39,806 bases of DNA, taken from assembly GCF_016786325.1 (NCBI RefSeq), contig NZ_JADWYU010000102.1, positions 76,643-116,448 on the forward strand, written 5' to 3'. This DNA is from Frankia nepalensis (GTDB taxonomy: Bacteria; Actinomycetota; Actinomycetes; Frankiales; Frankiaceae). A program made the translations under genes and the position numbers. Position 1 is the stretch's first letter. The number at the start of each line of letters is the position of its first letter. The notes under the pieces were generated by a model that was not told where the DNA came from, did not search any database, and saw only the letters and a list, made by a program, of their open reading frames with translations. Of this stretch, positions 3,987 through 38,519 are shown piece after piece.

Positions 3987-4841
3987 TCAGGCAGAGAGCG
4001 CCGCAAGCCGGCGAAAGTCGGCGGCCGCGGGCCGACCCGTGGGGTCGGGGTTCATCCCAGCGGTAAGTAGGTCAGCGAGTTCTGGCCATCCGGCCAGGTC
4101 CCCGCGGACATCGCCGGTCGGGCCGCCAGCGAGGACACGGTGGAGATCGGCTACGGACGCGGTGGCGCGGTCGAGGCCGACGGCCGCGTAGTCCACGGGA
4201 AGACGGTCGGCCGCGAGGTAGAAGAGGACCGCGCTGAGCGTGTACACCTCGGCGGCCTCGGTGAGCGGCACGCCGGCGTCAGCCGGCGTGACGGCGAGGG
4301 TCGCCGCGAGCTCCGGCGCGGCGAAGTGCGCCATTCCGCCCCGGTATGGACAGGGCGGCGTGCGCAGGTCACCGGCAGGAGGGTGCGCGATCCCGAAGTC
4401 GATCAGCTGGGCGGCGCCGAGACCCTCGTGATGGGCGTGGCGGGGCTGCAGATCGCCGTGACGCCAGCCGACGGCGTGCAGGTCGGCGACCGCCGCCGCG
4501 AGCTCGCTGGCCGCGGCCAGCGCCCGAGGGCGGGCAGCGGGGTCCGCGCGCCCAGCGGCGAACAGCTCGCTGGTCGTCGGCCCGGTCAACCATCGCAGCG
4601 CAAGCCATCCCTCGCCGGCGGCCAGCAGATAGCCCGGGTAGAGCTCGGCCAGTGCGGTCAGTACCGCGGCCTCCCGGCCGGCCGCCGGTCCGGTCTTGAG
4701 GGCGAGCTGTCCGTGGGTGTGCTCGACGTGGTAGACCGCCGCGCCGCGTCGGCGGTCGGTGACCGGTGCCGCCGACCGGATGCCGCATCCGAGGGCGGCC
4801 TCGAGTGCGCGCAGGGTTTCCTCCACGCCCTCAGGATGCAC
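3987..4841 (-). CDS. protein kinase-like (Ser/Thr kinase or aminoglycoside-phosphotransferase fold) protein
   Basis: A 284-residue protein with most of a kinase core: LALKTG with the ATP-binding Lys at 49, the catalytic-loop equivalent HGDLQPRH with Asp130, IDFG with the metal-binding Asp at 148, and FAAPEL (APE-like) at 174-179. The loop Asn is replaced by His137. The N-lobe is short and has no clear glycine-rich loop. The GTG start lies 9 nt after the DUF6875-like gene, so it is the third gene of a compact operon. The substrate is unknown. It could phosphorylate the small protein encoded first in the operon or a small molecule; both are inference. Confidence 0.8.
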   Translation of the reverse strand: MHPEGVEETLRALEAALGCGIRSAAPVTDRRRGAAVYHVEHTHGQLALKTGPAAGREAAVLTALAELYPGYLLAAGEGWLALRWLTGPTTSELFAAGRADPAARPRALAAASELAAAVADLHAVGWRHGDLQPRHAHHEGLGAAQLIDFGIAHPPAGDLRTPPCPYRGGMAHFAAPELAATLAVTPADAGVPLTEAAEVYTLSAVLFYLAADRLPVDYAAVGLDRATASVADLHRVLAGGPTGDVRGDLAGWPELADLLTAGMNPDPTGRPAAADFRRLAALSA

Positions 4842-4850
4842 CGCGCATGG

Positions 4851-5498
4851 TCAGCCTCTGGCGGCGCGGAGTTGGCGTGTCGCCCAAGCCGTCAGCTGGG
4901 GCCAGGCGTCAAGGGTGGCTGCCGCGGTCACCGGGGTGCCGCCAAGGCCCGGCACCTGGTCGAAGACCGGCAAGCCGTCGTCGTGAGCCGCGGCGAGTTG
5001 CTCGGCGATCCCCGGGGTGGTGTCGGCCACCAGTCGAGGATCACGGGTCGCCATCGCCGGGCGTACCGAGAAGAAGGCCGCCGGCGGTGAAGGAATTGCC
5101 CGGCCGAACCGGTCGGTGGAGTCCTCTCCCGGCCAGAATTTTCCGATCATGAGGCCGGTTGAGGCGAAAAGCGCTTTGATGATCCAGTGTGGCCAGGCCA
5201 GCAGGTCGACCCACAGGGTGGGCGGGGCGTCGCCGAGCACGGCGATGTTCTCGCAGACCAGCCGGCCCGCGCTGGCGCGTGCGGTGCGTACGCGTTCGGC
5301 CGCCTCCAGGACCAGGCCAGACAGCGCCGGGACGATCTGGTCATCGACGGGCGGGGCCGCGAGGTAGCAGCGCCACACCAGCGTCTCGGCGGCGCGGGCC
5401 GGTGCCAGAAACGGGCAGTGGACGGCGACCGTGTCGAGATAGCCGGACAGGTCCAGCTCGGTGACGCGCGGGTCATGGGGAGCAAGTGGATGCAACAT
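4851..5498 (-). CDS. DUF6875-like protein
   Basis: A 215-residue protein with CPF at 28-30, a central GLMIGKFWPG (115-124) and then IPSPPAAFFSVRPAMATRD. That order (CPF ... GLMIGxFxPG ... SPxP ... R.M...D) is the pattern I associate with DUF6875; the assignment is from memory. The reaction is unknown. The start is the ATG at 5498 because GGAGG (5510-5506) lies 7 nt upstream; an earlier ATG overlaps that ribosome site. It is the middle gene of the operon, separated from the first gene by a strong hairpin and from the kinase-like gene by 9 nt. Confidence 0.7.
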   Translation of the reverse strand: MLHPLAPHDPRVTELDLSGYLDTVAVHCPFLAPARAAETLVWRCYLAAPPVDDQIVPALSGLVLEAAERVRTARASAGRLVCENIAVLGDAPPTLWVDLLAWPHWIIKALFASTGLMIGKFWPGEDSTDRFGRAIPSPPAAFFSVRPAMATRDPRLVADTTPGIAEQLAAAHDDGLPVFDQVPGLGGTPVTAAATLDAWPQLTAWATRQLRAARG

Positions 5499-5516
5499 CA
5501 GCGAACCTCCCTGCAT

Positions 5517-5563
5517 CCTCGGTGGCCGCCCCCAGAGGGGGTCGCTGGGAACCGCCACCGAGG
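5517..5563 (-). promoter_or_regulatory. attenuator-like stem-loop inside the operon
   Basis: CCTCGGTGGC (5517-5526) pairs perfectly with GCCACCGAGG (5554-5563), and a second stem CCCCC (5529-5533)/GGGGG (5537-5541) sits inside. It starts 11 nt after the stop of the 140-residue gene and ends just before the GGAGG of the DUF6875-like gene, with no T-run. It is therefore placed to stop part of transcription or stabilise the upstream message, so the first gene would be expressed more than the next two (inference). Confidence 0.5.
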
Positions 5564-5574
5564 GCCGTGGTGTT

Positions 5575-5997
5575 TCAGCAGCCGGCGCGCGTGTCCGCCG
5601 GAGGTCGGGGCGCGGGCAGGCCGGGCTTGCAGTCCCAGGAGGCGATGACCTGCCCGGCGGCCCGGTAGGCGTCGCGGGCGTCGACGTCGAGGACGCCCGC
5701 GGCGTCGGTGAACCACACGTCGGGCAGCGGGCCGTACGCCTCCTCGTAGGCGCCGACCCATTCGACCAGACCGGTGCCGACCGCGGGAAGGTGCTCGACC
5801 GGCCCTCCCGCGTATTCGGCGGCCAGGGCGGTGTAGCCGGCCGGGTCCTCCTTGAGGAGACGGTGCCAGGCCGCGTCCATGTAGCCGGAGAACATCGGGG
5901 TCTCCTCGCCGCCCGCGGCCCTGGCGGCCGCCACCGCGAAGTACCGGCCAAGCTCAACGAGGGGATCAGCGGACTGGGTGGACTGAATGGTGGCCAT
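5575..5997 (-). CDS. 140-residue protein with Cys-containing C-terminal tail; possible modified-peptide precursor
   Basis: A helical protein with MDAAWHRLLKEDPAGYTAL (from about 40), VEHLPAVGTG, and YEEAYGPLPDVWF at about 84-96. This pattern (D..WH...DP..Y ... H.P ... Y....G.LP.VWF) recalls small bacterial 'glycine-rich domain-containing' proteins. The tail after ASWD is CKPGLPAPRPPADTRAGC, Pro/Arg-rich with Cys123 and the last residue Cys140. The ATG at 5997 follows GGGAG. It is first in an operon with DUF6875-like and kinase-like genes and is followed by an attenuator-like hairpin. That arrangement resembles a RiPP precursor and its enzymes, but no known RiPP class is matched. Confidence 0.72.
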   Translation of the reverse strand: MATIQSTQSADPLVELGRYFAVAAARAAGGEETPMFSGYMDAAWHRLLKEDPAGYTALAAEYAGGPVEHLPAVGTGLVEWVGAYEEAYGPLPDVWFTDAAGVLDVDARDAYRAAGQVIASWDCKPGLPAPRPPADTRAGC

Positions 5998-6086
5998 CAA
6001 GGCTCCCTTTTCCGGGGACGCGGCGCGTCCAGATGCCTCCATCCCACCGGCCTCCACCCACCCGGAACAGCCTTCGAGCACCATCA

Positions 6087-6117
6087 GCACAGGTCTGTGC
6101 GGATCACGCAAATCCGC
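6087..6117. promoter_or_regulatory. two inverted repeats in the divergent XRE/operon promoter region
   Basis: GCACAG (6087-6092) and CTGTGC (6095-6100) form a 14-bp palindrome. Overlapping it, GCGGAT (6099-6104) and ATCCGC (6112-6117) form a second inverted repeat with a 7-nt spacer. They lie between the divergent starts at 5997 and 6185. They are plausible operators for the XRE regulator; no binding data can be read from sequence. Confidence 0.4.
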
Positions 6118-6184
6118 TAGGTCCACCCCTACCGATCGGCTACCCTCCGCACATCAGAAGATCACAATTGGTACGGGTACGGAC

Positions 6185-7465
6185 GTGTTGCCTCACGACA
6201 CCGTGCAGGACCCCGGTGCCGTCGTGCGCCGCGCCCGCAAGGCGCGCGGCCTGACCCAGGGCCAGCTTGGCGACCTGGTCGGCTGCGCAGCGTCCACGGT
6301 GTCACGCTGGGAGACCGGGGTCATCCGCCTCGACCTGGAGACCCGGCGCCGCCTCGCCGACCTGCTCGCGATCCCGCTCCAGCACCTGGGCCTCGACGCG
6401 AGCTCCCCGACTGCCAGGTCGATCACCGCTAGGGTTGGCGGGATCATCCCCGGGTCGAGGGAGGACCACCAGGTGCTGCTGCGCCGCCACCTGCTCGCCG
6501 CCGTACCCGCCGGCTTCCTGGGAGCATCAGCCGGCCTGCCGGCCCACAGTCTGACCGACCAGATCACGATCAGCCTGGAGCAGGCGCTGCTCATCCCGCC
6601 TGGCGACCTGCGGCCCGTCCCGCTGCCGGTCCTGCGCCGCATGCTCGCAGACGCGCAGTCCGACTTCGCCGCCGCCGCCTATCAACGCCTCGGCGAACGG
6701 CTACCCAAACTCCTCGCCCTCGCGCAGACCACGGCCGCCACCGAGCCGCCCCCAGCTGGGGCCCTCTACGCAGACGCCGCAGCGCTCGCCGCGCACCTCG
6801 GTATCAAGACCGGAGTGGACCATCTCGCCTGGGTCGCGGCCGACCGGGCCGTCACCGCCGCCCGGCCGTCCGGCGACCCTGTCGCGCTGGCCGAGGCGAC
6901 CCGGATGCTGGTCATCCTCGCCCGCCGTGCCGGCCGCCGCGACCGTGCCCTCACCCTCGCCGTCGACGCCGCCGACGCCCTGTCGCCACATCTGGTGGCC
7001 GACCCTCGGGCCGGCCGGCTGCATGCCCGGCTGCTGTGCACCGCCGGCTACACTGCGGCTGGCGCCGGCGATCGGGACGCCGCGGGGGTGCTGCTTGGCG
7101 AGGCCGCCGCCCGCGCGGAAGCCGGCACGCCGGAGGCGACACAGATCGCGCTCTACCAGGTCTCGGCCGCGCTCGCGCTCGGCGACGCCGGCCATGCCCT
7201 CACCCACGCCCGCGGCGTCACCCCCGCGGCGGGCCTCACGCCGGAACGCGCCGGCCGCTACTGGGTCGACGTCGCCCTGGCTCTCGCCCAGCTGCGCCAA
7301 CCGGCCAACGCCTGGGAGGCGCTGCGCCGGGCCGAAGCCGCCGCCCCCGAGGAGGTTCGCGCTCGGCCCGTGGTCCGCGACCTCGCCAGTGACCTGCTGG
7401 CCGCCCCCGGTGCCCGCCCAGCCGGGCTGCGGGCCTTCGCCACCCGGGTCGGCATCACCAGCTGA
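6185..7465 (+). CDS. XRE family regulator with a TPR-like helical C-terminus
   Basis: A 426-residue cytosolic regulator. An HTH_XRE domain is at about residues 12-66 (VRRARKARGLTQGQLGDLV, STVSRWETG, LADLLAIPLQHLGL). It is followed by about 350 residues of Ala/Leu/Arg-rich helices with TPR character, typical of actinobacterial XRE regulators. The start is uncertain: GTG at 6185, TTG at 6188 and GTG at 6203 are in frame and none has a good ribosome site, so a leaderless mRNA is possible. It is divergent from the three-gene operon at 3987-5997, with inverted repeats between. Control of that operon is the simplest reading (inference). Confidence 0.85.
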   Translation: MLPHDTVQDPGAVVRRARKARGLTQGQLGDLVGCAASTVSRWETGVIRLDLETRRRLADLLAIPLQHLGLDASSPTARSITARVGGIIPGSREDHQVLLRRHLLAAVPAGFLGASAGLPAHSLTDQITISLEQALLIPPGDLRPVPLPVLRRMLADAQSDFAAAAYQRLGERLPKLLALAQTTAATEPPPAGALYADAAALAAHLGIKTGVDHLAWVAADRAVTAARPSGDPVALAEATRMLVILARRAGRRDRALTLAVDAADALSPHLVADPRAGRLHARLLCTAGYTAAGAGDRDAAGVLLGEAAARAEAGTPEATQIALYQVSAALALGDAGHALTHARGVTPAAGLTPERAGRYWVDVALALAQLRQPANAWEALRRAEAAAPEEVRARPVVRDLASDLLAAPGARPAGLRAFATRVGITS

Positions 7466-24631: not shown

Positions 24632-27172
24632 CTATGTGTCTCGTGAACGTTCGTTACCGGGCGGTCGGGCGCGCTCTTGCCACCAGGCCAGTGCATTCTG
24701 GCTGGTAAGTGTGTCGGGGTGGTCGGGGCCGAGTACCCGCAGCTGATCAGCCAGCAGTCCTTGGACGATCGCAGCGGCGCCGGCTGGATCGCCCGCCCGC
24801 CCCTGCCAGTTGGCCATCTCGTATCGGACGCGCTGGGTCGCGGGGTCGTCGAGACCCAGCACTCGCAAAGACTCGGCGAGCAGTTCCTGGAGAGTGGCAA
24901 TGGCGCCGGCTGGATCGCCCGCCTCCCCCTGCCATCGGGCGAGGTAACGCCAGGTGGCCAGGGTGGTCGGATGGTCGGGGCCTAGTGCTTGCAAAGACTC
25001 GGCGAGCAGTTCTTTGAGAGTGGCAGCGGCGCCGGCTGGATCGCCCGCGTGCCCCCGGCAGTGGGCCATCTGGTGTCGGACGGCCAGGGTGTCGGGGTGG
25101 TCGGGGCCCAGCACTCGAACGAAATCGGGGATCAACTCTTCCAAGGCGGTGGCGGCGCCAGCCGCGTCCCCGGCATGCGCTTGCCACCAGGCCAGTTTGG
25201 CCCGGTGGACCAGGGTGCTGCGGTCGTCGGGGCCCAGCACTCGAACGAAATCGGGGATCGACTCTTCCAAGGCGGTGGCGGCGCTAGCCGCATCCCCCGC
25301 CCTCCCCTGCGAGCTGGCGAGGTTGCCCTGCGCCACCAGGGTGTTGGGATGGTCGGGGCCCAGCACTCGAACGAAATCGGGGATCAACTCCTCCAGGGCG
25401 GCAACAACAGCGTCGGCTGGATCCCCCGCCTCCCCCCGCCAATAGGCAGTCTCGTGTCGGGCGGCCAGGGTGTCGGGGTGGTCGGGGCCGAGCCGGTGGG
25501 AGGCGGCTGTGGCCAGGTGGAGGAAGTGGTTGGCGGCGGCTGTACCAAGACCAGCCTTGCTGAGGCTTCTGCCTGCGCGGAACAGCACGGTGTGCCCGTG
25601 GGGGTGCCATAGCGCGTCGGGAGCGTATGCGTAGAGCGCGTCGGTGTTGGCGCGCAGGGCTTGGGCGAGTGTGGTGTCGCGCTCCACCTCGGGCCAGGCA
25701 GACACGAGGGCGTCGGCCGCAGCGCGCACCAGGGTGTGCTGCCGGTCGGGGGGGAGCGGCTCGCGGGTCGCGCGTTGGATCAGCTGGTGGACGCGGACGG
25801 CCTGGTGCGGGCTGGCCGGGGTGTAGTCGACGAGGCTGAGCATGTGTAGGCAAGCGAGCGCGTCACGGATGTGCTCCGCGTCGACCGGGCGGGGATCGGC
25901 GGCGGTTTGACCGGCGGGCACGCGACGGTCGGTCAGGTAGGCCAGCGCCGGGACGCTGGTGAGCACCGTTTCGGGGATCCCGTTGGGATCCAGGACCGCG
26001 GCAAGTTCGAGCAGCGGGCTCGCGAGGCCGACTGGACGGTACTGGTTCGCTCGCTCGATCGACAGGGACCAGGCGGCGGCCACGGCGACGGGGTGGTCGT
26101 CGGGCAGGCTGTGGGGGGCCAGGTCGGCCAGGGTCCGGGTGCGGTCGGCGAGCCGGGCGCGGTAGGCCGCGCAGTCCAGGTGACGGGAGTCGAGGATGTA
26201 GGCGGCCGCTTGGGCCAGCGCGAGCGGCAGGTACCCCAGATCTTCGGCGAGCCCGGCGATCTCGGCGGGCTCGCTGGGCTGGCTGTGGCCGGCGAGGGCT
26301 GCGGTGAGGTAGGCGGTGGCCTCGTCTGGGGTGAACAGGCCCACGTCGACCCGGCGGCGGCGATCACCGGTCAGGGCGGCGTCCTGGCGGCGGGTCGTGA
26401 CCAGTACCCGCCCGCCCGGCCGGTCTGGGGGCCATAGCCCGGCTAGGTCGTCCGGGTCGGCGAGGTCGTCGAGGACGATCAGCCATCGCCGGTCGGTGCT
26501 GGCCAGCCAGGCCAGCAGCGCGTCCGCGGACGCGGCCGGATCCGACCGGTCGGCACCTGCGACTTCGGCCGCGGCGGTGGCGTAGGCGGTCTGGATCGCG
26601 TCGCGGCTGGCCGCAGTCACCCACATCAGCAGATCCACCGACCCGGCGTCCCAGACCTGGTGGGCGTAGTCGGCGGCGAGCTGGGTCTTGCCGACCCCGC
26701 CCATCCCGGCCAGCACCTGGCACAGCACCGCCGTCCCGCCGTCACCGACCGCGTCCTTCAGCAGATCGACCGCGGCCCGGTGTTGGAAGCGGGCCGCCCG
26801 CCGAGGCACCACTCCCACCCGGCGCGGCGGCGCGGAGTCCTTCCCAACCCTTGTGCGTGTGTCCCCTCGAGGGCGAGCGTCGGTGGTCCTCTCCAGGTCA
26901 CGGTGACGCTCATGGACGGCCGCTAGTTCCCGGATCTCGGCCAGGGCAAAGTCGGCCGCGCCCTCGTTGGCGGCACAGGCCCGCACCCACAGTTCGATCT
27001 TCTCGTCCGGCGGCGGGTCGACGATCTTGGCGTTGCGGATCGCGTTGAGGTGGCTGACGCTGTACCCGCACCGCTCGGCGAGCTGCTTATCGGTCAGGCC
27101 CGCGCTGTCACGCAGCTGGCCCAGGATCCCGCAGATCTCCCGGACCTCAAGACTCGGCTCGCTCGCCGCCAT
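24632..27172 (-). CDS. STAND (NLR-like) protein: XRE HTH, NB-ARC ATPase and TPR repeats
   Basis: An 846-residue protein. Residues 11-70 form an XRE-like HTH (LTDKQLAERCGYSVSHLNAI). The NB-ARC ATPase has Walker A GMGGVGKT (156-163), Walker B LIVLDD (231-236), sensor VLVTTRR (256-262), GYLPLAL (313-319) and a winged-helix VHQLIQ. From about 560 on it carries TPR-like 42-residue units with the kinesin-light-chain/TPR_10 signature LGPDHPDTL. STAND proteins are ATP-driven sensors or scaffolds; relatives act in development and in phage defence. It has no recognisable effector domain other than the HTH. The ATG at 27172 follows a G-rich ribosome site. It is the largest cargo gene of the transposon. 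Confidence 0.92.
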   Translation of the reverse strand: MAASEPSLEVREICGILGQLRDSAGLTDKQLAERCGYSVSHLNAIRNAKIVDPPPDEKIELWVRACAANEGAADFALAEIRELAAVHERHRDLERTTDARPRGDTRTRVGKDSAPPRRVGVVPRRAARFQHRAAVDLLKDAVGDGGTAVLCQVLAGMGGVGKTQLAADYAHQVWDAGSVDLLMWVTAASRDAIQTAYATAAAEVAGADRSDPAASADALLAWLASTDRRWLIVLDDLADPDDLAGLWPPDRPGGRVLVTTRRQDAALTGDRRRRVDVGLFTPDEATAYLTAALAGHSQPSEPAEIAGLAEDLGYLPLALAQAAAYILDSRHLDCAAYRARLADRTRTLADLAPHSLPDDHPVAVAAAWSLSIERANQYRPVGLASPLLELAAVLDPNGIPETVLTSVPALAYLTDRRVPAGQTAADPRPVDAEHIRDALACLHMLSLVDYTPASPHQAVRVHQLIQRATREPLPPDRQHTLVRAAADALVSAWPEVERDTTLAQALRANTDALYAYAPDALWHPHGHTVLFRAGRSLSKAGLGTAAANHFLHLATAASHRLGPDHPDTLAARHETAYWRGEAGDPADAVVAALEELIPDFVRVLGPDHPNTLVAQGNLASSQGRAGDAASAATALEESIPDFVRVLGPDDRSTLVHRAKLAWWQAHAGDAAGAATALEELIPDFVRVLGPDHPDTLAVRHQMAHCRGHAGDPAGAAATLKELLAESLQALGPDHPTTLATWRYLARWQGEAGDPAGAIATLQELLAESLRVLGLDDPATQRVRYEMANWQGRAGDPAGAAAIVQGLLADQLRVLGPDHPDTLTSQNALAWWQERARPPGNERSRDT
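24734..25492 (-). repeat. tandem repeats of about 126 bp encoding TPR units
   Basis: Six complete units (one of 43 codons, five of 42) and a partial seventh, each beginning LGPDHP or a close variant. Some blocks are nearly identical in DNA: the stretch encoding EE(L/S)IPDFVRVLGPD recurs three times. This indicates recent duplication or gene conversion within the array. Confidence 0.78.
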
Positions 27173-27349
27173 GGAACCCCCCGTTCCTGTTCCGGTGCTC
27201 TTCCGGCACCGGAACCACCGGACAGTCTGCCCCAGCAGCCCACCGAGCCGGTCGTTCCGGTCACGTTCCGGCGCAACGAAAAGCCCGTTCCGGGTGCCCC
27301 AGCGTGAGGGCTGTCGCCGATCCGGGCGGCTGGTCTGAAGGAGCACCGG

Positions 27350-27550
27350 ATGTACACCGACCCGATGACGGTCAAGATCCTCGTGGTGGCACTGTGCGTC
27401 ACCGCGTCCGTGTGCGTGGCGCTGGTCGCCGGCTACCTCGAGCGGCGCGCCGGCGCCCACCCGGCGGCCGCGGTCCAGCGCGGCGGGACCGCGTTCGCCG
27501 GCGCCCTCGCCCTGCAGCTTCTTGTCCTCACCACCCTCGGTGCGCTGTGA
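27350..27550 (+). CDS. small two-helix membrane protein, relative of the one at 23,149
   Basis: A 66-residue protein with helices at about 8-28 (ILVVALCVTASVCVALVAGY) and 46-65, and a loop ERRAGAHPAAAVQRGG. AAGGAG lies 7 nt before the ATG at 27350. It shares the LVA..L, GG..F and TTL pattern with the 69-residue peptide near the left end. It is divergent from the STAND gene (178 bp) and followed by the pRiA4b ORF-3 gene. Function unknown. Confidence 0.72.
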   Translation: MYTDPMTVKILVVALCVTASVCVALVAGYLERRAGAHPAAAVQRGGTAFAGALALQLLVLTTLGAL

Positions 27551-27578
27551 CTTCCGCGGGTCGGGATAATGGCGAGCC

Positions 27579-28202
27579 GTGGCCTCGGATGCGCAGGCTC
27601 CAGCGCCGTCGTCCGTGTACCAGCTGCGGGTAGTGCTCGCGGGGATCAGCCCGCTGATCTGGCGGCGCCTGCTCGTCACCGACCAGACGAGCGTCGCCGA
27701 GCATCTGCACCGGTTCACCATCCACGGCGTCGGCTACGGGATCGCTCGGCCCGGGACCGCCGGCTTCGCCCACGATGCCCGCCGGGTGCTGCTGGCGGAC
27801 TTCGGCTTCCGGGTCGGGGAGCGGTTTGTCTACGAGTACGACTTTTTCGACGCCTGGCGCCACGACCTGCGGGTGGAGAAGATCCTGCCCGCTGACCCGG
27901 GCCGGCGATATCCGGTCTGTGTTGACGGCGCCCGCACCGCGCCGCCGGAGGACTGCGGCGGGCCGGCGGCGTTCCTGGCGCTGCGCCAGACCTACTCGAC
28001 CTACGCGGTCGCGACCCGGATGGCCGACCTGCTCGCCCCGCTGCTTACCGCGGACGGCGACGACCTGGTGGGCGAGCACCTCGCAGGGCGCCGCGAGGAA
28101 CTCGCCACCCTGCTGGCCTGGAGCCGGATCGACCACTTCGACCGGGCTGCGGTCAACCACGCCCTGCACACCGACCCTGCCCTGGGAGGCAGCCCGCCAT
28201 GA
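27579..28202 (+). CDS. plasmid pRiA4b ORF-3 family protein
   Basis: A 207-residue protein opening with the family signature YQLRVVLAGISPLIWRRLLV, followed by HRFTIHGVGYG, FRVGERFVYEYDFFDAWRHD and CVDGARTAPPEDCGGPAAFL (IGWxxxHLYxF is degenerate here). Members accompany IS elements, including IS1096, where a relative was named TnpR; biochemical function is unproven. The GTG at 27579 is used. Its stop overlaps the ATG at 28199 (ATGA), which begins the transposase reading frame, so the two are coupled. Confidence 0.88.
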   Translation: MASDAQAPAPSSVYQLRVVLAGISPLIWRRLLVTDQTSVAEHLHRFTIHGVGYGIARPGTAGFAHDARRVLLADFGFRVGERFVYEYDFFDAWRHDLRVEKILPADPGRRYPVCVDGARTAPPEDCGGPAAFLALRQTYSTYAVATRMADLLAPLLTADGDDLVGEHLAGRREELATLLAWSRIDHFDRAAVNHALHTDPALGGSPP

Positions 28203-37470: not shown

Positions 37471-37565
37471 ATTGGGGCCCGTCGGCCAGCGCGAACGGCC
37501 CGGCCGCCGGTACGCGACTCGTGCGCGTTATCCGGCAGGTCGATCGAGACGAAGGAGGCGGCCGG

Positions 37566-38519
37566 GTGGTGGCGACGGTGACCAGGCTCGACGCCCACCG
37601 CGCCGGGAGCCCGGCCGGCGGGCCGACGGTGCACTCCGCCGTCGACGCCTTCCTCGACGCCCCGGCGATCAGGGGCAACCCGAACACGCTGCGCGCCTAC
37701 ATGAACGTGCTCGACCGGGTCGCCGAACTCCTCGGCCCGGACCAGGCGCTCGCCAGCGTCGCCGACGACGACATCGCCGACGCCCTGGGCGAGCTGTGGG
37801 GTGCGGCGAAACCGGCGACATGGAACCGCAACCGCGCCGCGGTCGCCTCCTGGCTCAGCTGGTGCACGACCCGAAGGCACTGGGACGCGCCGGCGATGCC
37901 GGCGGCCGCCGAACGGCGCCGCGAACCCACCGACGACACCAAGGTCGTCTCACGGACCCGGATCGACCGGCTCTGCCGGCGGCGTGACGTCCCGCTGCGG
38001 GAGAAGACGCTGTGGCGGATGCTCTACGAGTCGGCCAGCAGAGCCTCCGCGGTCCTGGCGCTCAACATCGAGGACCTCGATCTGCCGAACAAGCAGGCCC
38101 GCGCCGTCGTCAAGGGCGGCGACACGATGTGGATCACTTGGGGCACCGACACCGCCCATCTGCTGCCCCGGCTGATCGCTGGCCGGACCCGCGGCCCGCT
38201 GTTCCTCTCCGCCCACCGGCCCGGCCCGCATCGCCGCGCGACGACCGACCCGCGCGACCTGTGCCCGGACACCGGCCGGGCCCGGCTCGGCTACGACCGC
38301 GCCCGGATCCTGCTCGGCCAGTACGGCGACGGACTCCGCCTCCACCAACTCCGGCACAGCTCCGCCACCCACCTCGGCGACGCGAACACCTCCGCCAACG
38401 TGATCATGGCCAAGACCGGACACAAGTCGCTGCGCAGCGTGCAGCGCTACGTGAAGCCGGGCCTGGCCGCCGTACATCAGGCCACCGAGGCACTCTCCAG
38501 CCCGCGCCGGCGGGGATAG
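37566..38519 (+). CDS. tyrosine recombinase/integrase
   Basis: A 317-residue recombinase. The N-terminal SAM-like core-binding domain (about 20-115) includes NPNTLRAYMNVLDRVAELLG. The catalytic domain has Arg159 (ESASRAS), a beta-hairpin Lys (VVKGGD, about 183), HQLRHSSA with His260/Arg263, TGHKS with His286, and RYVKPG with nucleophile Tyr295, so the active site is complete. The start is the GTG at 37566 because AAGGAGG (37552-37558) sits 7 nt upstream; a GTG at 37521 is less likely. It has no excisionase neighbour. The inverted repeat upstream is a candidate target. Confidence 0.92.
   Translation: MVATVTRLDAHRAGSPAGGPTVHSAVDAFLDAPAIRGNPNTLRAYMNVLDRVAELLGPDQALASVADDDIADALGELWGAAKPATWNRNRAAVASWLSWCTTRRHWDAPAMPAAAERRREPTDDTKVVSRTRIDRLCRRRDVPLREKTLWRMLYESASRASAVLALNIEDLDLPNKQARAVVKGGDTMWITWGTDTAHLLPRLIAGRTRGPLFLSAHRPGPHRRATTDPRDLCPDTGRARLGYDRARILLGQYGDGLRLHQLRHSSATHLGDANTSANVIMAKTGHKSLRSVQRYVKPGLAAVHQATEALSSPRRRG

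Follow-up and report, generated by a model that had tools for sequence, protein, structure and literature searches.

A co-inherited cassette in Frankia nepalensis combines a small folded protein bearing an invariant Trp-[Asp/Asn]-Cys motif with a likely heme enzyme related to DUF6875 and a kinase-like protein

Results

A rare cassette of three genes

A 39,806-nucleotide stretch of the Frankia nepalensis genome (RefSeq assembly GCF_016786325.1, contig NZ_JADWYU010000102.1, positions 76,643 to 116,448; hereafter the window, with positions counted from its first letter) contains three minus-strand genes, transcribed in the order small protein, DUF6875-like protein, kinase-like protein, that form a real, co-inherited and rare cassette. 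The small protein carries an invariant Trp-[Asp/Asn]-Cys motif (W[DN]C), and the second protein is related to DUF6875, so that the cassette brings together a newly recognised heme-enzyme family, a kinase-like protein and a Trp-Cys motif carried within a protein. No description of the cassette was found among the papers listed by searches on DUF6875, cytochrome P422 and systems for ribosomally synthesized and post-translationally modified peptides (RiPPs), and its role is probably biosynthetic. A sequence-only reading of this DNA had suggested a new peptide-modification or signalling system laid out like a RiPP locus; the genes proved to be a genuine co-inherited unit with biosynthetic signs in two relatives, and a RiPP core in the tail of the small protein was not supported.

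The three genes are inherited together

A tblastn search of plasmid records with the small protein returned four Streptomyces plasmids, at 43.7–46.7% identity, and two Macrococcus/Macrococcoides plasmids, at 33%. The DUF6875 gene directly follows the small gene in all four Streptomyces plasmids (L005–L008), and in three of them it is followed by genes for a kinase-like protein and then a GNAT acetyltransferase (PF13302), L008 having a kinase fragment only. Each of these four cassettes lies at most about 11 kb from the end of its linear plasmid. A profile scan across genomes, with each species represented once, added 23 loci, chiefly from Streptomyces and Kitasatospora, with one locus each from Actinacidiphila, Streptacidiphilus and Gulosibacter. 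When 197 genomes of the class were surveyed for DUF6875, the family turned up in seven, one of which held a further cassette (L042).

With the window counted in, 31 loci contain the small gene, and the counts below refer to these. A DUF6875 gene that covers at least 70% of the profile, whether whole or split into two or three pieces, lies downstream in 28 loci (strong matches in 26, weak ones in Macrococcus and Gulosibacter), a kinase gene in 27 and a GNAT gene in 20. Both full partners lie downstream on the same strand in 27 loci, and 26 keep the window's gene order, which deviates in Macrococcus L009. Since the Macrococcus and Gulosibacter sequences were themselves built into the profiles, their matches in this count hold by construction. 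The sequence-only reading had proposed a neighbourhood survey to see whether kinase-like genes occur together with the small protein and DUF6875, which in most of these loci they do. Homologues without the Cys tail or the partner genes had been named as what would speak against such a system; the first tail Cys is present in all 31 loci, and homologues short of a full partner do occur, with a full kinase missing from four loci and a full DUF6875 gene from three.

The divergence of the three proteins is also correlated. In 19 of the 31 loci each of the three genes could be read, and for these the pairwise comparisons of protein distances gave Mantel r values of 0.93, 0.93 and 0.90, and among 16 Streptomycetaceae the values were 0.90–0.93 (each p 0.0002 in both sets). 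The window's small protein is 44–50% identical to 18 actinomycete homologues.

Surveys at several taxonomic scales indicate how rare the cassette is. Of 35 genomes of the order, the Frankia genome alone was found to encode a DUF6875 protein, and a convincing small protein was found in none of 395 other sampled genomes of the phylum, where two weak matches (L002 and L003) were unconfirmed by the small-protein profile. A single-sequence scan of genome contigs with P0003 gave no confirmed match, a scan of viral contigs gave no match and phage records gave two weak ones. In the family of the Gulosibacter genome (299 genomes), Gulosibacter itself and two wider-domain proteins were recovered and nothing else. 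The distribution is best read as that of a horizontally moving cassette, ranging from actinomycetes to Macrococcus plasmids. Incomplete cassettes were seen at L008, L018, L033, L064 and L065.

The small protein is predicted to be a folded domain with W[DN]C in its last strand

The W[DN]C motif is found near the C-terminus of the small protein in all 31 loci, and it formed no part of the peptide patterns that found the 23 profile-scan loci. It is absent from the three wider-domain relatives outside cassettes (L011, L048 and L049), beside which neither a kinase nor a DUF6875 gene was found within the stretch examined. An AlphaFold2 model built from 19 aligned sequences is a compact domain, with a predicted local distance difference test score (pLDDT) of 89.3, a predicted template modelling score (pTM) of 0.81 and a pLDDT of at least 90 at 114 of the 140 residues. 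In this model W121 and C123 lie within the last predicted strand, residues 127 onwards form a loose tail of 14 residues, and conserved positions alternate (V117, A119, W121, C123 and P125). Identity between window and Gulosibacter is 44% for the small protein, 26% for the kinase and 16% for the DUF6875 protein, making the small protein the slowest-evolving of the three. A usual RiPP precursor is not the slowest-evolving, folded member of its locus.

The window's small protein ends in SWDCKPGLPAPRPPADTRAGC, which contains two Cys. The tail after W[DN]C spans 7–21 residues across the loci (40 in the broken L008), and a second tail Cys occurs in two of the 31, the window (last residue) and L013 (next to last). 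Ser or Thr is present somewhere in 29 tails at no fixed position, and the tails of L028 and L030 have neither. A conserved domain with a varying tail was what the sequence-only reading had expected; the role of a variable RiPP core for the tail is not supported, in view of the rare second Cys, the unplaced Ser/Thr, the compact predicted domain and the slow evolution, the only loose part being the 14-residue tail rather than an unstructured precursor.

No family in Pfam, NCBIfam or PADLOC matched the small protein, nor did a solved structure in the searches made. Foldseek against the PDB and BFVD gave nothing at E 0.001 or better, VIA on 34 chains returned a single row (Z 2.2), and sequence searches against solved structures had best E values of 0.12, 0.13 and 0.46. 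The D-x2-WH...H pattern of the small protein resembles that of GRDP-like proteins (PF07173); a PF07173 search matched none of 149 genomes and none of its controls.

The DUF6875-like protein is likely a thiolate-heme enzyme

Cassette members score low against the DUF6875 profile PF21780, at 20.1 bits for the window (below the gathering cut-off of 24.5) and 29.7 and 29.4 bits for L005 and L042 (above it), in comparison with 162–206 bits for seven canonical members; by this measure they are a divergent subfamily. In an hhalign comparison of profiles, six canonical members and 17 from cassettes are related with a probability of 94 and a pairwise E of 1.4e-7, and a Cys and a His-x3-Lys motif are aligned. 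Members from Streptomyces cassettes fall into the same Pfam family as the DUF6875 heme enzymes, including ZigI of the zigralone cluster, and share with them the Cys of CP[FY] and the HxxxK...GxMxGxF region. The gene neighbourhoods differ: none of six canonical DUF6875 loci from the survey of the class has the small protein or a kinase-like gene within about 3.5 kb (about 1.5 kb on each side), whereas the cassette has both. The N-terminal Cys is kept in all aligned members with a readable N-terminus, Macrococcus and Gulosibacter among them, and this HCPF Cys also lines up with that of YqcI/YcgG proteins, with some support when canonical members are aligned (probability 55, E 1.2e-4) and no significance for those of cassettes (E 0.43).

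The model of the window's protein (pLDDT 87.1) has AglA and the YqcI/YcgG N-hydroxylases as its best VIA matches; AglA entries occupy the five best rows, at Z 6.2–6.6 over 138–154 residues, the next row having Z 4.6. AglA is described as a heme hydroxylase of sandwich fold whose thiolate ligand is Cys44; aided by a reductase, it hydroxylates the guanidine group in a small arginine compound (PMC12866846). For DUF6875, the available text of PMC13307353 reports that deletion of zigI gave a product without a methoxy group, which its authors assign to missing C-7 hydroxylation of a Trp-derived intermediate; it calls the family heme-binding and L-tryptophan-oxidising on the strength of cited work, and cytochrome P422 is named in the title of the preprint cited for it. 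Because the model resembles AglA, the cassette and canonical profiles are related and the HCPF Cys aligns between them, the DUF6875-like protein is likely a thiolate-heme enzyme, in which we infer that Cys28 binds the heme.

The third protein matches kinase profiles

The earlier suggestion that one of the two enzymes has a kinase fold is supported by profile searches. The best NCBIfam match of the window's protein is the kinase part of LanL (1.9e-10, residues 99–279), a match that reaches 2.8e-18 for the L005 Streptomyces kinase, and the PADLOC profiles for PD-T4-6 match it at 1.3e-9, in the kinase domain only. Pfam Pkinase gives 16.9 bits, below its cut-off of 31.7. The Lys, the Asp of HxD and the Asp of IDFG are invariant in five aligned kinases. 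The catalytic loop reads HGD[LI]QPxH in the window, L012–L015, L032, L034 and Gulosibacter, and HADVQPTN in the other Streptomyces-type loci read; since the usual metal-binding Asn is His in the former group, phosphoryl transfer is only assumed. Lanthipeptide loci are reported to include cyclases with a kinase fold (PMC12291118).

A kinase 37% identical to the window's is encoded on a plasmid of Streptomyces sp. NBC_01116 (L060, 1938–5442), together with a 43-residue open reading frame, an argininosuccinate synthase and, on the opposite strand, a canonical DUF6875 gene. This may be a second kind of DUF6875-kinase locus.

Distant relatives carry transporters and tailoring enzymes

In Gulosibacter hominis (L030, 755–6638), the genes for the small protein, a weakly matching DUF6875-like protein and the kinase are followed in one run by genes for a carbamoyltransferase (PF02543, 2.7e-35; PF16861, 3.7e-42), a JmjC_2 protein (2e-6) and an ATP-binding cassette (ABC) transporter (PF00005, 1.6e-28), so that the locus looks like a compact biosynthetic cluster. 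The Macrococcus plasmid pMP21332_1 (L009, 5465–11374) adds a stand-alone LanKC-type RamC_N domain (1.3e-15) and a major facilitator superfamily (MFS) gene, with a GNAT gene on the opposite strand. It also has a HelD-like gene, which matches at 8.3e-94 and scores 315 bits where the curated cut-off is 419. The Pfam matches for the ABC transporter, carbamoyltransferase, JmjC_2 and RamC_N exceed the Pfam cut-offs, while the subfamily matches for HelD, MFS and ABC are below the curated NCBIfam cut-offs. The related plasmid L010 has a shortened DUF6875-like gene and lacks the kinase and RamC_N genes. The transporters and tailoring enzymes of these two distant relatives, L030 and L009, are signs of a biosynthetic role. 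MFS genes annotated in L007, and one seen by eye in L013, are kilobases away and not shared.

HelD-type proteins shield or rescue RNA polymerase from rifampicin, according to the available portions of PMC12802891 and PMC10719064. Since such proteins protect RNA polymerase, a HelD-like gene beside a biosynthetic unit might serve self-protection in the Macrococcus cassette, and it would hint at RNA polymerase as the target of a product; with a single lineage concerned, this is a lead rather than a finding. Immunity to peptide antibiotics is possible via RimL-type acetyltransferases, a point that we did not use as evidence on the cassette's GNAT gene.

A working model and its alternatives

Our preferred reading, which we hold tentatively and at less than even confidence, is that of a horizontally moving biosynthetic cassette for post-translational modification, in which the heme enzyme acts on the Trp of W[DN]C in a folded carrier. 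The small protein would be that carrier, presenting the motif on its last strand, and the DUF6875 thiolate-heme oxygenase would oxidise the Trp or link it with the adjoining Cys. The modified site might then be phosphorylated or otherwise acted on by the kinase-like enzyme. Among the relatives, completion or release of the product, or immunity to it, may fall to an acetyltransferase or another tailoring enzyme, joined in two lineages by a transporter. The most likely core of this model is that the small protein either binds or itself contains the substrate that the DUF6875 enzyme oxidises; the Trp as substrate, the order of steps and the release of a small product are speculative. W121 is the first substrate candidate, given its invariance, the equally invariant Cys two residues on and the Trp chemistry reported for the family. 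If it is the substrate, the cassette would represent a protein-modifying branch of the DUF6875 heme family and a new route to a ribosomal product from a folded protein.

A more specific and doubtful form of the model is that a thiolate-heme enzyme outside the P450 superfamily oxidises the adjacent Trp and Cys and also cross-links them, as a thioether or a quinone, in a carrier that the kinase and tailoring enzymes would turn into an antibacterial or a protein-bound cofactor. One parallel is the cysteine tryptophylquinone of quinohemoprotein amine dehydrogenase, presumably carried on the small subunit. There too a Trp and a Cys are bound in a protein on which an oxygenase acts, in its case a flavoprotein that does the hydroxylation (PMC7876137); the cassette is likened to it by motif.

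Several observations weigh against the modification model. Buried core packing of the predicted strand might equally explain why W121 and C123 are conserved. Likeness to AglA is modest, with Z below 8 and a Foldseek rank of 6 (E 0.09), where SpoVS and an RNase E domain score better, and cassette DUF6875 proteins have no significant match to the YqcI profile (E 0.43). The His of His-x3-Lys is absent from L029, Macrococcus, Gulosibacter and one canonical member, and retesting DUF6875 profiles built without the sequences concerned left weak scores for Gulosibacter (13.0 bits) and Macrococcus (8.5), the best of 1000 shuffles scoring 6.7. The unit is also not always intact: L010, L018 and L033 lack full partners, L008 has its kinase fragment, the DUF6875 frame is broken into two or three pieces in L013, L017, L021 and L031, and plasmid records (H11–H14, the H14 locus being L064, and L065) have partial DUF6875 or kinase matches, with the small gene not found. 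Related kinases occur in other contexts (L060–L063), those at L061–L063 in regulator arrays without DUF6875, and at L060 the small protein was not found despite a kinase beside canonical DUF6875. A transporter, protease or redox partner is absent from the conserved Streptomycetaceae unit and from the five flanking window genes scanned.

The main rival, unlikely in our view yet the most serious, makes the small protein a partner (an adaptor, or a substrate-holding or redox-assisting protein) of enzymes whose substrate is free tryptophan or some other small molecule. Its folded domain, with conserved positions throughout and the slowest evolution of the three, would suit such a role, as would the Trp-derived small-molecule pathway of the published DUF6875 protein; the layout of L060, including its argininosuccinate synthase, favours a kinase-DUF6875 link with no need for the small protein. 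Against a partner role stand the divergence of cassette DUF6875 proteins from the canonical ones and the absence of W[DN]C from the three wider-domain relatives. It is improbable that the cassette is instead a signalling or phage-defence module, with a kinase, a heme-binding sensor and an acetyltransferase at plasmid ends. The PD-T4-6 match would fit, but it is to the kinase domain alone, and the small and DUF6875 proteins have no PADLOC match; the four Streptomyces cassettes near linear plasmid ends lie beside annotated DUF6879 and helix-turn-helix genes (of the DUF5753 type at L005), L008 has a Pycsar-like pair some kilobases on, and the kinases of the L061–L063 arrays point the same way, but the transporters and tailoring enzymes of L009 and L030 do not fit.

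Somewhat more doubtful still is a lanthipeptide-like RiPP, in which the kinase would phosphorylate Ser/Thr of a core in the tail, a lyase would form dehydro residues and Cys would close a thioether ring. LanL is indeed the best NCBIfam match of the kinase, L009 has a separate RamC_N lyase domain and a tail reading CVPIMTTD, and at least one Ser or Thr occurs in most tails. RamC_N nevertheless had no match in the window's genome (of 14 controls, Deinobacterium chartae gave one), in none of the other 30 loci did a single-sequence profile find a counterpart of the Macrococcus RamC_N gene downstream of the small one, and the tails of L028 and L030, like the rarity of the second Cys, do not suit a core. 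The cassette thus resembles the class III/IV enzymes LanKC and LanL in its kinase domain, and in Macrococcus by the stand-alone RamC_N, and differs from them in lacking fixed Ser/Thr and in having a folded protein instead of a short precursor; with RamC_N absent from its genome, we set a lanthionine route in the window low. That the genes are chance neighbours, or the small open reading frame spurious, is very improbable: the single DUF6875 protein in the order would agree with it, but chance neighbourhood is ruled out by conservation across the 31 loci, with shared order and partners in two phyla, correlated distances and close actinomycete homologues of the small protein.

Layout of the window and flanking features

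The three genes, the pair of tail Cys, the hairpin and the divergent XRE open reading frame were each located again in the window where the sequence-only reading had placed them (Table 1). The hairpin, of about 18 bp and very stable, lies upstream of the DUF6875 ribosome-binding site. In the window, where folding was computed, the 91-nucleotide stretch with the hairpin has a folding energy of -48.1 kcal/mol, while shuffled sequences average -36.9 (z -3.2). The hairpin is thus real. A terminator scan made no call at it, and L005–L007 leave no space for one, the DUF6875 gene there sharing 4 nucleotides with the small gene. The XRE gene, which had been taken for the regulator of the system, is not shared, its profile matching in the window only among the window and 29 loci searched. 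Neither hairpin nor XRE gene was kept as a defining part of the cassette.

Table 1. Features of the cassette and its surroundings, in window positions
Feature	Position	Strand	Remarks
Small protein gene, 140 amino acids	5575..5997	-	Predicted folded domain at about residues 12-126 and loose tail 127-140; homologues in 30 further loci
DUF6875-like gene, 215 amino acids	4851..5498	-	GGAGG ahead of ATG; AglA-like model, probable thiolate-heme oxygenase
Kinase-like gene, 284 amino acids	3987..4841	-	Catalytic loop HGDLQPRH, IDFG
Divergent XRE regulator gene, 426 amino acids	6185..7465	+	Profile match; not conserved with the cassette
Hairpin between small and DUF6875 genes	5517..5563	-	Folding energy against shuffles
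W121 D122 C123 codons (invariant Trp-Asp-Cys)	5629..5637	-	Last predicted strand 118-126 (AlphaFold2)
Cys28 codon (HCPF motif), likely heme ligand	5415..5417	-	Aligned with canonical DUF6875 Cys; weakly with YqcI/YcgG Cys

Elsewhere in the window, positions 24632–27721 on the minus strand encode a 1029-residue STAND-type regulator with NB-ARC, tetratricopeptide repeats and a helix-turn-helix domain, and a recombinase of the phage integrase family is encoded on the plus strand at 37521–38519, about 30 kb from the cassette.

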